45,153 nucleotides of DNA from a virus, in the IMG/VR virus record IMGVR_UViG_3300046517_000333, positions 1 through 45,153 of that record; one strand, given 5' to 3'. The notes below the pieces were generated by a model. That model did not search any database. It was not told the origin of the DNA and saw only the letters and a program-made list of their open reading frames with translations. The translations under genes were made by a program, and so were the position numbers. Positions 10,278-37,320 of the stretch are shown one piece after another (positions within the stretch are counted from its first letter, which is position 1; each line of letters opens with the position of its first letter).

Positions 10278-10345
10278 TGGCGGAAGGCAGCAGGAGTCGA
10301 ACCTACCTGGGAGTGTCTGACACCCCCAACTGGGTTTGAAGCCCA
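10278..10345 (-). other. attP core: 3' part of a selenocysteine tRNA (selC)
   Basis: Read on the minus strand, this stretch is the 3' part of tRNA-Sec. It starts in the anticodon arm with the UCA anticodon (10337-10339 on +), then the long variable arm GGGGGTGTC/GACACTCCC, the T-arm GGTTCGACTCC and an acceptor end CTGCCTTCCG-CCA. The 5' half is absent (bases beyond 10346 are not tRNA-like), so this is an attachment core and not a tRNA gene. Integration into the host selC would regenerate the gene with the phage copy. It lies 80 bp after int. Confidence 0.9.
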
Positions 10346-10386
10346 AACAATTTACCATTAAAAGCATAGCCTTAGCCTCGCTTTTA

Positions 10387-32915: not shown

Positions 32916-33677
32916 TCATGCGTCCGGGATTACCGGCTCGGGATAGCACCGGCAGTTGTATATCTGCCCCGCGTGCGTCACCGTGCCGTCTGATAGCTTC
33001 GGAGGCGTGTCCCAGCGGACATACTTGCCCTCCATCTCTTTGTGCGAGTGGCGAACGTCTGAGTCTTTCGACGTGCGCCAGATATAACCGTCGCTGCCGA
33101 GATGCACGGCGCGCGCTTCAGTCAGCTTCGAGGCTGTTCGCGCGACTTCCGTGCGCGCGATGAGATTGGCGCGGCCCATACTGACCTCGCCAGACCGGGC
33201 GATTTCCTTCGCGATCTCTTTCGCGCGCGTGCCGTCTTCGATGCCGGCCAGCGTCAGGGCATGCACGCGCTTGGCGGCCTCGAGCGGCAGGCTCTTAATG
33301 AGCGTCACCTGTTCGGCCAGCAGCGCCTGCATGAGCTCGCCGGTCGGGGCAGAGCGGATCTCCTCGCGCAGCGCGCGCGACATCTCATTGGCATGGGCAA
33401 ACCACGCTTGCTCGTCGCGGGCATTCACCTCGCCGAGCATCTTCGAAGCCGTCGCCGTGGCCCAAGGGATGAGCACCTCGGCGTACTTCGCCAGCAGATC
33501 GCTGATAGTCGGGACCGACGCCGGATCACCAGGGGGGAAGCCGTCGATGATCATGCCAACCTGCTGCGCGACCTTGCGCAACTGGCCGGCGTACGTCAGT
33601 TCAACCCGCCGCGTTTTGATCGCTTCCCGGTTCCGGTTGCGTTTCCGCTCCCGGTCCGTTGTTCGTTTCCTCAGCAT
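32916..33677 (-). CDS. Head morphogenesis protein (Mu F/SPP1 gp7-like), 253 aa
   Basis: The C-terminal part has ANLIARTEVARTASKLTEARAVHLGSDGYIWRTSKDSDVRHSHKEMEGKYVRWDTPP and ends IYNCRCYPEP, the diagnostic pattern of the Mu gpF-like minor head domain. The N-terminal half is helical. It starts inside the portal gene (77-bp overlap). It is thought to sit in the capsid and aid assembly or DNA ejection. Confidence 0.9.
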   Translation of the reverse strand: MLRKRTTDRERKRNRNREAIKTRRVELTYAGQLRKVAQQVGMIIDGFPPGDPASVPTISDLLAKYAEVLIPWATATASKMLGEVNARDEQAWFAHANEMSRALREEIRSAPTGELMQALLAEQVTLIKSLPLEAAKRVHALTLAGIEDGTRAKEIAKEIARSGEVSMGRANLIARTEVARTASKLTEARAVHLGSDGYIWRTSKDSDVRHSHKEMEGKYVRWDTPPKLSDGTVTHAGQIYNCRCYPEPVIPDA

Positions 33678-35064
33678 TGGGCATGTCCAAAACAGGCGGC
33701 GGATCGTTCTCCGCTTCCGCGATCATCTCGTCGGTGATGTTGCTGAAGATGCCGGTCGCGTGGCTGGAGCCGCGCAGTTCCTTCATGGCCGTGGCGCGGT
33801 CGATCGCCTGCAGGTCATAAGCTTTCGTGACTGCATCCGCTACCGTGCTCGCGACGGTTGCCTTCTCCGTGTCCGACATCTGCTCGAGCGAGCGGAACTC
33901 GTGCGCCAGATCCTCGGGCGGCTCGCTGCCGAGCTCCGAGCGCCACGTCAGATCGAGGATCACGTCGAACGGGCTGCGAAGGCGGCGCTCCTGCTGCTGC
34001 TTGATGTTGTCGTGGTACATCGCCAGATCGGATTCGCCGGTGGCATTCAAGCCGGCAGGCGACTGCCCAAAGAGGCGAACGAGCGGAATCTGAAGCGCGC
34101 CGGACAACTGCTGTCCGAACTGCAGGAGCACGTTGTCCAGACCGGAAAACGTGAACTGGTGCGTGCCGAAATCGTCTTCCGCGTCGATCAGCGTCAGACC
34201 TTCATTCGACTGGAAGCGCCGGATGAAATCGACGTTGCGCAGCAGCGCGCGCTCGGCCGGGCCGCCGGAGGCGAGGATCTCTCGCAAGCCCTTGACCTTC
34301 AGCGTGCGCAGATGCGCCTTGTACACGAGCTGCGCGACGCCCATCGTCGTGCTGTCGAACGCAACCAGCCGGTCGTACAAACGCTCGATGACCGATTGCC
34401 CCCAGCCTTGCTCGCTGAAGCGCTGCTGATACGGCAGGTCGACGCCATCGATACGCACGACGCGCGAATAGTGGATGACCTTGCCGTCGAGCGGCGTCTG
34501 GCTGGTCATCACCGTGTAGTTCAGCGGCTCGCCGAAATGCGGCCCGAAATCGGATACCTGCTCGGTCAGAGACGGCTGGCACATCCAGCGGTCGAGGACA
34601 TAGATGCCCTTGAACTGCCCCTTGCCGACCGTCTCCGGACGCAAAGGAGTCGCCATGTTCTGGCCGTCGATCAGCAGCACGCCGAGCGCGCCACCATACA
34701 GGCGGCCCCACTTGATCGTGTCTGCGAGTTTGTCCCAGATGCCCAGACGTTGAAGCGCCTTGTACATCCGCTCCTTGTCGTCCGGGTCGACCTCGTCGCC
34801 GGTGATTTCAATCCCGGCGCGCGTCATATCCTCAGCGACGACGTCCACCGCCTGCCCGACGACCCAAGACGAGCGATACATCGCTTCGAGCTTGATGCGG
34901 TTGCGGCTGATGAAGTCGAACTGATACGTCGAATTGCTGGACTGGTTGTCCGTGCCGACGCCGACGCGAGCCGCGAAGTTCGCGAAGCTATCTTCCGCGC
35001 GCCAGCGGCCGGCTGACTCCGCAGGCTTTGCAGCAGCGGTTGAATTTGCTCGCTTTCGTGTCAT
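33601..35064 (-). CDS. Portal protein (DUF1073), 487 aa
   Basis: The region FDFISRNRIKLEAMYRSSWVVGQAVDVVAEDMTRAGIEI, then TIKWGRLYGGALGVLLIDGQN and KGIYVLDRWMCQPSLT matches the DUF1073 portal family. Its dodecamer forms the packaging channel. Some relatives carry an Acb1 (anti-CBASS phosphodiesterase) domain at the C-terminus; here the tail is a disordered Asn/Pro/Glu-rich stretch without it. I start at ATG 35064, 8 bp after the terminase stop; GTG 35094 would overlap terminase. Confidence 0.92.
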   Translation of the reverse strand: MTRKRANSTAAAKPAESAGRWRAEDSFANFAARVGVGTDNQSSNSTYQFDFISRNRIKLEAMYRSSWVVGQAVDVVAEDMTRAGIEITGDEVDPDDKERMYKALQRLGIWDKLADTIKWGRLYGGALGVLLIDGQNMATPLRPETVGKGQFKGIYVLDRWMCQPSLTEQVSDFGPHFGEPLNYTVMTSQTPLDGKVIHYSRVVRIDGVDLPYQQRFSEQGWGQSVIERLYDRLVAFDSTTMGVAQLVYKAHLRTLKVKGLREILASGGPAERALLRNVDFIRRFQSNEGLTLIDAEDDFGTHQFTFSGLDNVLLQFGQQLSGALQIPLVRLFGQSPAGLNATGESDLAMYHDNIKQQQERRLRSPFDVILDLTWRSELGSEPPEDLAHEFRSLEQMSDTEKATVASTVADAVTKAYDLQAIDRATAMKELRGSSHATGIFSNITDEMIAEAENDPPPVLDMPNAEETNNGPGAETQPEPGSDQNAAG

Positions 35065-35072
35065 CTGAATGT

Positions 35073-36464
35073 CTAGTCGGCTAGGCTGGCCCACACGTCA
35101 AGCGCGCGCGCACCGGGCGCGAAGCACATGACGAAGGCGTCTGCGAGGTTCGGCGAGGCAACATCACGCTTGGCGAGATCCTTTTTGCTCTCGACCTTGA
35201 CCCGACCGTTCTGGTCGTAGTCGCGCTTCGGCGTCGACAGTTCGTCGATCAGCCGGTCAAGATGCGGTGTGTCGCTGGAAATGCTGATGAGCTGGTCGTC
35301 CGCGAACTTCTCGCCGCGGCGCACAGCGTTAAACGTGTTTCGGAAGCGGTCAGCCAGCATCCACCAGGCTTGCGCCTTGATGTTCGAGAACATGTCCTTG
35401 TTCGTGATGTGCGGCTGGTACTTCCGGTCCGGCTCCCATACCTGAGCGCCGGCATTGAACTTGTCGTAATTCACTTCGGCGATCTCGCCTGCAGCGCGGC
35501 GTTCTTCATTGATCTCGCCGAATTTCGCGCCGCAGCCTGCACCCACGCCAATCGAGTCGTAGGTAATAGACGCGCCGCGCGATGCCGCTGCGGAGTAGGT
35601 GCGCGAGCAGCTTTTCAGCAGTTCGTCCTCGCCGGCCTTCCATTCGTCGAGCCAGCTGACGACCGAGCCGTGCGCATAGACTGCCGCGCACTTGTCAGAG
35701 CCGCTGTCGGCAACGTCGAAGCCGATGCGCTTAGCGCCTGACGCCTCGAAGCCCAACTGAATATGAGCGTCGATCGCGGCCATGATCCACGAGCGCTTAA
35801 TGATCGAGTCATCGTCATCGTCGCGCGGCACACCTAGATAGATGTGCTCGTAGGTCTCGAAATCCTCTGCCTTCGCCGCCTCGATGATCTCCAACATGGT
35901 GTCGGAGAGAAACGGGTTCTCGGTGTAATTGATCTGCCGCACGACAGTGCGTGGCGGCGGATTTGTCACGAACCGCTTGTAGACGAAGTCCGTCGACAGG
36001 CGAGGGTTGAAAATGATCCAGAACTGAGAGCCGGACTTGCGCAGCGTCGGATTCAGAACTTCCCACTGCTCCTCGGTGAGGTTGTGCGCCTCTTCAATCC
36101 AGCAAACGTCGATGCCTTCAAGCGACTTGATTTCGTCGATCGAGCGCCACAGACCGTAAAACAGGAACTCGCTTCCGGTCGCGCGATTGATGATCTTGTC
36201 GCGCTGGATGTCGAACCGATGCGACAGGCCGAACCGCTCAATCTGGATCTTCAGCAGCGAATAGACCGACTCAGCGATCTTGTTTTGGAACTGCCGCGCG
36301 CAGAGAAAGCGGATCGAGTATGTGTTCGCGAGGAAGACCGCAAACCCCGCCGCATCCCATGACTTCGACGAAGCCCGGCCGCCGTGCAGCACGCGATTGC
36401 GCGCCGATTGCTTCCAGAAGCCTCGCAGCGCCGGGTTAAGCGTCGCCCTCTTCGACATCTCCAT
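35073..36464 (-). CDS. terL: Terminase large subunit
   Basis: The 463-residue product has the ATPase Walker A GGRASSKS (28-35) and Walker B/catalytic Glu in IDVCWIEEAHNL. The nuclease domain has GFDVADSGSDKCA and, at the end, NLADAFVMCFAP (the last acidic residue). This is the PBSX/terminase_3 type. It cuts and pumps phage DNA into the prohead. It overlaps the small subunit by 29 bp. Confidence 0.95.
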   Translation of the reverse strand: MEMSKRATLNPALRGFWKQSARNRVLHGGRASSKSWDAAGFAVFLANTYSIRFLCARQFQNKIAESVYSLLKIQIERFGLSHRFDIQRDKIINRATGSEFLFYGLWRSIDEIKSLEGIDVCWIEEAHNLTEEQWEVLNPTLRKSGSQFWIIFNPRLSTDFVYKRFVTNPPPRTVVRQINYTENPFLSDTMLEIIEAAKAEDFETYEHIYLGVPRDDDDDSIIKRSWIMAAIDAHIQLGFEASGAKRIGFDVADSGSDKCAAVYAHGSVVSWLDEWKAGEDELLKSCSRTYSAAASRGASITYDSIGVGAGCGAKFGEINEERRAAGEIAEVNYDKFNAGAQVWEPDRKYQPHITNKDMFSNIKAQAWWMLADRFRNTFNAVRRGEKFADDQLISISSDTPHLDRLIDELSTPKRDYDQNGRVKVESKKDLAKRDVASPNLADAFVMCFAPGARALDVWASLAD

Positions 36465-37065
36465 AGAAGTGATCCAGCCCGACGGGCGTTTCGTTTGCGC
36501 CGCCCTCTGCTGCCGCGTTAATGCCGTATGCCTCGCGCTCCAATCCGACCAGCGTCTTGAGCGTGTCGGAGAGCGCCTTCATGTTCGATACGCGGCCGGA
36601 CATCGAGATCGCCTTCTGATACAGGTCGTTCCGCTTGTCCTGGCCTTTGTCGTCCGGCGCGCGGAGGATTTCTCCGAGTTGCTCGAACAACTCCATGTTG
36701 CCGGTGACCGATTCAAGCTCGGCCAGCAGCGCCATCGCAAGGTTGCGAGAGCGCGAGATGTCTTTGCGGTGCGCCAGGCGAATACCGGCGATGACTTCCG
36801 CGTTCGCATCGATGATTGCCAGATCGGAAACCGTGGTTTCCATGGCAACCGACTTGGCAACTTCGCGCTTGGCAACCAGCGCCTCAGCCTTGTCCTGTAT
36901 GCGTTTGCTCAGATCGCGCACCCAGCCTTCGGCCTTCGCGCGCTTCTGGATTGCTGTATGCGAGATGCCCTGAGAAGCAGCGATTTCCCTTACCGACAAC
37001 ACGCCGGCCCGGTAATCGCCTTCGATGCGCTCCCAGTCCGGCGCGGCTTTCTTTGGCTGCGCCAT
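36436..37065 (-). CDS. terS: Terminase small subunit
   Basis: The 209-residue product has an N-terminal helix-turn-helix (IEGDYRAGVLSVREIAASQGISHTAIQKRAKAEGW, about 14-48), then long helices for oligomerisation. It lies directly before terL. It recognises the packaging site; the pac/cos location cannot be seen from the sequence. Confidence 0.9.
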   Translation of the reverse strand: MAQPKKAAPDWERIEGDYRAGVLSVREIAASQGISHTAIQKRAKAEGWVRDLSKRIQDKAEALVAKREVAKSVAMETTVSDLAIIDANAEVIAGIRLAHRKDISRSRNLAMALLAELESVTGNMELFEQLGEILRAPDDKGQDKRNDLYQKAISMSGRVSNMKALSDTLKTLVGLEREAYGINAAAEGGANETPVGLDHFYGDVEEGDA

Positions 37066-37072
37066 GATTCCC

Positions 37073-37267
37073 TCAGTACGTTTCGATGCGCTTCGCGAGC
37101 GCCTTCGAATACAGGCGCATCCACTTCAATTGATCGACCATCCAGTACCGCTCGGCCGATTTGACCTTGTTCGCTTCCGGCGAGTTGAGGAAAGAGCCCA
37201 ACTCCAGAATCTTCTGGTCCACGGCGGCCTTCTCGTCCATGACACTTTTCTGATACGGCAGCATCAT
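37073..37267 (-). CDS. Acb2/Tad1-type hairpin protein (candidate cyclic-nucleotide sponge), 64 aa
   Basis: The short two-helix protein has the layout PYQKSVMDEKAAVDQKILELGSFL, loop, then WMVDQLKWMRLYSKALAKRI. As I recall the family, this is the pattern of the Acb2/Tad1 hairpin domain (QxRVxxEKxxLDxKxxxLxxFI ... QLxxMxxYxxxLxxRI). Characterised members bind CBASS or Thoeris signal nucleotides and silence those defences. It lies just before the terminase genes and just after a leftward terminator. I use ATG 37267 because GAGAG sits 8 bases upstream; GTG 37276 is an alternative. Assignment is by pattern only. Confidence 0.72.
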   Translation of the reverse strand: MMLPYQKSVMDEKAAVDQKILELGSFLNSPEANKVKSAERYWMVDQLKWMRLYSKALAKRIETY

Positions 37268-37280
37268 GGCGGTCACTCTC

Positions 37281-37320
37281 GAAAAAGAAACGCCCGCGAC
37301 ACGAGGAGAGCCGCGGGCGT
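37281..37320 (-). terminator. Hairpin with T run, leftward
   Basis: ACGCCCGCG (37290-37298) pairs with CGCGGGCGT (37312-37320) over a 13-base loop. On the minus strand the stem runs into TTTCTTTTTC. It lies between the two small late genes and the Acb2-like gene, so it could limit expression of the packaging genes until antitermination. Confidence 0.75.

Follow-up and report, generated by a model that had tools for sequence, protein, structure and literature searches.

We asked what is encoded by the small gene that lies directly ahead of the terminase genes in a virus record of 45,153 bases, the whole of which was analysed and is called the window here. A sequence-only reading had described a 64-residue, two-helix protein placed between a terminator and the terminase, in a phage with a DUF1073 portal, and had assigned its residue pattern to Acb2/Tad1, whose characterized members sequester cyclic nucleotide signals. 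The open reading frame, its placement and the portal were all found as described (Table 1). The gene runs on the minus strand from an ATG at 37267 to a TGA at 37075–37073, and a Shine–Dalgarno-like GAGAG can be read in the sequence at 37280–37276, 8 nt 5′ of the ATG; an alternative GTG start at 37276 would add three residues, giving a protein of 67 amino acids. The terminator-like repeat lies just upstream of the gene (37318–37292; an overlapping hit was weak), and terS begins after a gap of 7 nt on the downstream side, followed by terL and then the portal. We found no Acb1 domain on the window's own DUF1073 portal and, besides the hairpin protein, no recognized sponge in the window.

Table 1 Features around the hairpin gene, in window coordinates
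Feature	Position	Strand	Basis
PF21825 helical-hairpin protein, 64 aa	37073..37267 (CDS including stop codon)	minus	PF21825 and PHROG 774 matches, AlphaFold2 model, Shine–Dalgarno-like site
Terminator-like inverted repeat, GC, T-rich tail	37292..37318 (arms 37292–37298 and 37312–37318)	minus	Sequence
Terminase small subunit, terS	36436..37065	minus	phrog_1206, E = 1e-72
Terminase large subunit, terL	35073..36464	minus	PF04466, E = 1e-36
Portal, DUF1073 family	33601..35094	minus	PF06381, E = 9e-113

Family membership and predicted fold

Among Pfam families the protein matched PF21825 alone (crAss001_48 related; E = 5e-12, with 46 bits where the cut-off is 24.8), and its best PHROG was 774, which is annotated without a function (E = 1.5e-12). 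Both stretches of the quoted pattern occur literally in the protein, as EKAAVDQKILELGSF and QLKWMRLYSKALAKRI. Judged by the PF21825 and PHROG 774 E values the pattern is more than chance, but it marks PF21825, a family separate from Acb2/Tad1. In an alignment of 60 sequences of the protein's family, with the window protein as one row, Q9, V12, E15, K16, L26, F29, Q49, M53, L60 and R63 are invariant, and all are present in the window protein. Y56 and S57 are near-invariant, as is R11, which is serine in the window protein, and conservation in helix 2 lies on one face (42-46-49-53-56-60-63-67). Family members begin with M-x-P-[HYF]-Q, compatible with a start of the window protein at the ATG at 37267 or at 37264. 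The family PF21825 (PHROG 774), T4 DenB.1 among its members, shares with the window protein a significant match over the whole length and the same hairpin model; the window protein is nevertheless a divergent member, with about 43% identity at best among the homologues found. A query of viral contigs with the single protein recovered no relative, and PADLOC and NCBIfam gave no match.

We tested membership of Acb2/Tad1 with the profile search that the sequence-only reading had named as its check. PF24729 (Acb2_Tad1_hairpin) did not match the window protein at E ≤ 10, nor anything else in the record, whereas T4 Vs.4, a genuine Acb2, was recognized with 71 bits and did not match PF21825. The conserved motifs of our PF21825 alignment differ from those of an alignment of 35 Acb2 sequences: the Acb2 motifs GYRDLSQEEI...N..K, Q.GFM...R.VAQP and GKTDLQxGFM are absent from the window protein. 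An hhalign comparison of the two profiles returned a probability of 0.7%, and 13 and 18 of 44 reversed and rotated nulls (global and local) scored equally high against Acb2. In searches of PDB sequences, the Acb2-alignment profile retrieved the Acb2 crystal structures, whereas the PF21825 family profile found no convincing chain and the single protein likewise nothing useful.

The predicted structure agrees with the two-helix architecture proposed earlier. AlphaFold2, given the 60-sequence alignment and a single chain, predicted a helical hairpin with helices at residues 7–30 and 40–65, joined through a short helix at 33–37 (mean pLDDT 94.9). Its best matches in BFVD were small phage proteins of E. 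phage IME11 and crAss001 (TM 0.92–0.94). Against PDB folds nothing scored below E = 0.001, and the 50 matches listed of 188 comprised only non-specific helical hairpins and no Acb2 chain, whereas a control Acb2 model built in the same way matched 8h2x (E = 2.3e-4) and 7uq2 (0.14). Because two-helix hairpins are generic in shape, the fold search counts against Acb2 yet identifies no function. The invariant polar residues (Q9, E15, K16, Q49 and R63), together with Y56 and S57, suit a common interface or pocket, to judge from their conservation. Like the window protein, Acb2 (T4 Vs.4) is a small phage helical hairpin, and helix 1 of the window hairpin does begin with an aromatic residue and a lysine close to its start, as in a true Acb2/Tad1 sponge might; with profile, motif and fold similarity all absent and the controls positive, such an identity is scarcely credible. 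We conclude that the window protein is outside Acb2 and Tad1 by every test made.

Fusions and exchanges of PF21825

We collected at least 80 viral loci with PF21825 from one scan and 12 bacterial contigs from another. The family occurs in T4, in Ackermannviridae and in phages of Fusobacterium and Stenotrophomonas; the T4 member is DenB.1, a hypothetical protein encoded between rIIB and denB (1244–1438 of locus L414, corresponding to T4 167743–167937). Most PF21825 open reading frames are short and apparently stand-alone, with 50 or more residues ahead of the domain in only 22 of 81. Some, however, are joined to other domains, and one such N-terminal domain, identified as phrog_872, was used as a query (76 residues from L100, containing no hairpin sequence), for which 80 loci were fetched. 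Among 75 distinct proteins with the phrog_872 domain, 42 carried a Tad2-like domain (PF11195), 25 PF21825 and 2 Acb4 (PF13876); these are best-scoring matches to one query, related sequences included, and not unbiased frequencies. The same caution applies to the 80 stop-to-stop open reading frames with the domain, where the counts were 46, 26 and 6, respectively; within this set the Tad2-like domain and PF21825 were never found together, and PF21825 and PF13876 coincided in 4. Outside it, one open reading frame (L250, 2050–3114), directly after an acb2 gene, joins PF21825 to phrog_872 and Tad2-like domains. Behind the phrog_872 domain PF21825 and Tad2-like domains replace one another; by Pfam they are unrelated, and Tad2 is an alpha/beta protein that assembles as a tetramer (PMC12043709). 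By eye, a second N-terminal module, KGEHYPCKPDIF, is joined to PF21825 in two loci (L333 and L340) and to Tad2-like sequence in two others (L367 and L395).

PF21825 was also fused on one open reading frame with Acb4, in 8 of 67 PF21825 open reading frames and additionally in L302 and L325; among the 12 bacterial loci the two were fused in one and adjacent in a second. Acb4 differs from the window hairpin in having a dsRBD-like alpha-beta fold and forming a tetramer. It is a verified sponge family, all eight homologues tested having bound 3′3′-cGAMP (PMC11722364). Further fusion partners of PF21825 are a MazG-like enzyme (L169) and an ABC-type ATPase (L137).

Gene neighbours and the position upstream of terS

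Genes for acb2 adjoin PF21825 genes in L095, L186, L188/L189, L254 and L275, with Pfam confirmation in L095 and L254. Conversely, among 80 loci centred on acb2, a PF21825 open reading frame lay within 2 kb in 4 (two of them, L188 and L189, being near duplicates) and a Tad2-like one in 3. PF21825 genes also stand beside nrdA-nrdB-glutaredoxin in Klebsiella phage PWKp5; in Shigella phage vB_SdyM_006 the neighbour is the anaerobic NTP reductase.

Gene content upstream of terS varies among relatives of the window. In two loci whose TerS is 67% identical (L013 and L014, tallied as one because they are identical in this region) the gene in this position encodes an Acb2 homologue (PF24729, E = 3e-14). 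None of the 80 TerS-related loci fetched contains a PF21825 copy, upstream of terS or elsewhere in the locus, the window alone having one in that position; one of these phages (G010) has a PF21825 copy elsewhere in its genome. Several other proteins were seen in the same position: by eye, those of L008, L031, L034, L035 and L047 resemble metallophosphoesterases and others are HNH-like or tail-fibre-like, while L018, L025, L038 and L068 share another small, probably helical protein (LVDGLERFVGNIRVLSADARAHLDAKFDRLRxLxP), whose L038 copy has no Pfam match. A related phage encodes a Tad2-like protein about 4 kb downstream of terS (L073, 10729–10974).

A possible role in counter-defence

We propose, with a probability of about 0.5, that the window protein is an accessory counter-defence factor acting as a nucleotide sponge. 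The gene would be a stand-alone PF21825 member occupying a variable slot just upstream of terS, and its small helical hairpin would assemble into an oligomer that sequesters a nucleotide-type immune signal from host CBASS, Thoeris or a comparable defence; we infer the ligand, the oligomer and the role in infection. Counter-defence is the best reading because fusions, domain swaps and neighbouring genes link PF21825 to three verified sponge families (Tad2, Acb4 and Acb2), and domain and gene context make a sponge the most likely reading of PF21825. For the family as a whole we suggest, more tentatively, an additional class of viral nucleotide sponge, T4 DenB.1 included, that is unlike Acb2, Tad1, Tad2 and Acb4 and is shuffled with known sponges in modular phage proteins. 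The earlier idea of an anti-defence sponge is wrong on the family; its function is independently favoured by the Tad2-like swaps, the Acb4 fusions, the acb2 adjacency and the acb2 homologue upstream of terS in relatives. Counted against a sponge are the MazG-like and ABC-type ATPase fusions and the ribonucleotide reductase gene neighbours, which fit a general adaptor or a role in nucleotide metabolism, as well as the window's lack of another recognized sponge, the confinement of PF21825 upstream of terS to the window and the divergent sequence.

The main rival holds that PF21825 is an oligomerization or adaptor hairpin that multimerizes its fusion partners, stand-alone copies binding and modulating such partners. 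Partners as unrelated as Acb4, a MazG-like enzyme, an ABC ATPase, phrog_872 and others would suit this, as would the single conserved face of helix 2; we consider it unlikely, since PF21825 takes the place of a functional domain, the Tad2-like one, in phrog_872 proteins, and most of its open reading frames appear to stand alone. Small phage proteins often block defence proteins, and the hairpin might counter defence by binding such a protein instead of its signal. The Tad2-like swap, the Acb4 fusion and the acb2 neighbours are equally compatible with this, but the recurrent partners of PF21825 are specifically nucleotide sponges, and we think it rather improbable. An accessory factor for ribonucleotide reductase or MazG would account for the reductase neighbours in the Klebsiella and Shigella phages and for the MazG-like fusion in a Stenotrophomonas phage; the T4 copy, between rIIB and denB, fits it poorly, and its chances are slim. 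Slimmer still are those of a terminase packaging cofactor. The gene is probably co-transcribed with terS, lying directly upstream of it, yet unrelated genes fill this slot in relatives, PF21825 is missing from it in all 80 TerS-related loci, and in T4 and other phages PF21825 is far from the terminase; we reject a packaging role because the position is so variable.

Counter-defence by a nucleotide sponge would give a function to a widespread phage family that has none assigned and is represented in the model phage T4. The Tad2-like swaps and Acb4 fusions yield a specific and cheap prediction, that PF21825 hairpins disarm nucleotide-based immunity; if it is true, phages build counter-defence proteins from interchangeable sponge modules and the uncharacterized T4 gene denB.1 gains a function. 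We found no mention of PF21825 or crAss001_48 in a literature search that missed most subscription papers and preprints. Because of this incompleteness, and because a 2025 preprint reportedly describes further sponge families, named Sequestin and Lockin, to which some T4 proteins belong, the functional link between PF21825 and sponges may already be known.

Elsewhere in the window, ARAGORN called a tRNA-SeC with anticodon tca on the minus strand (10282–10374), which may be a false positive.
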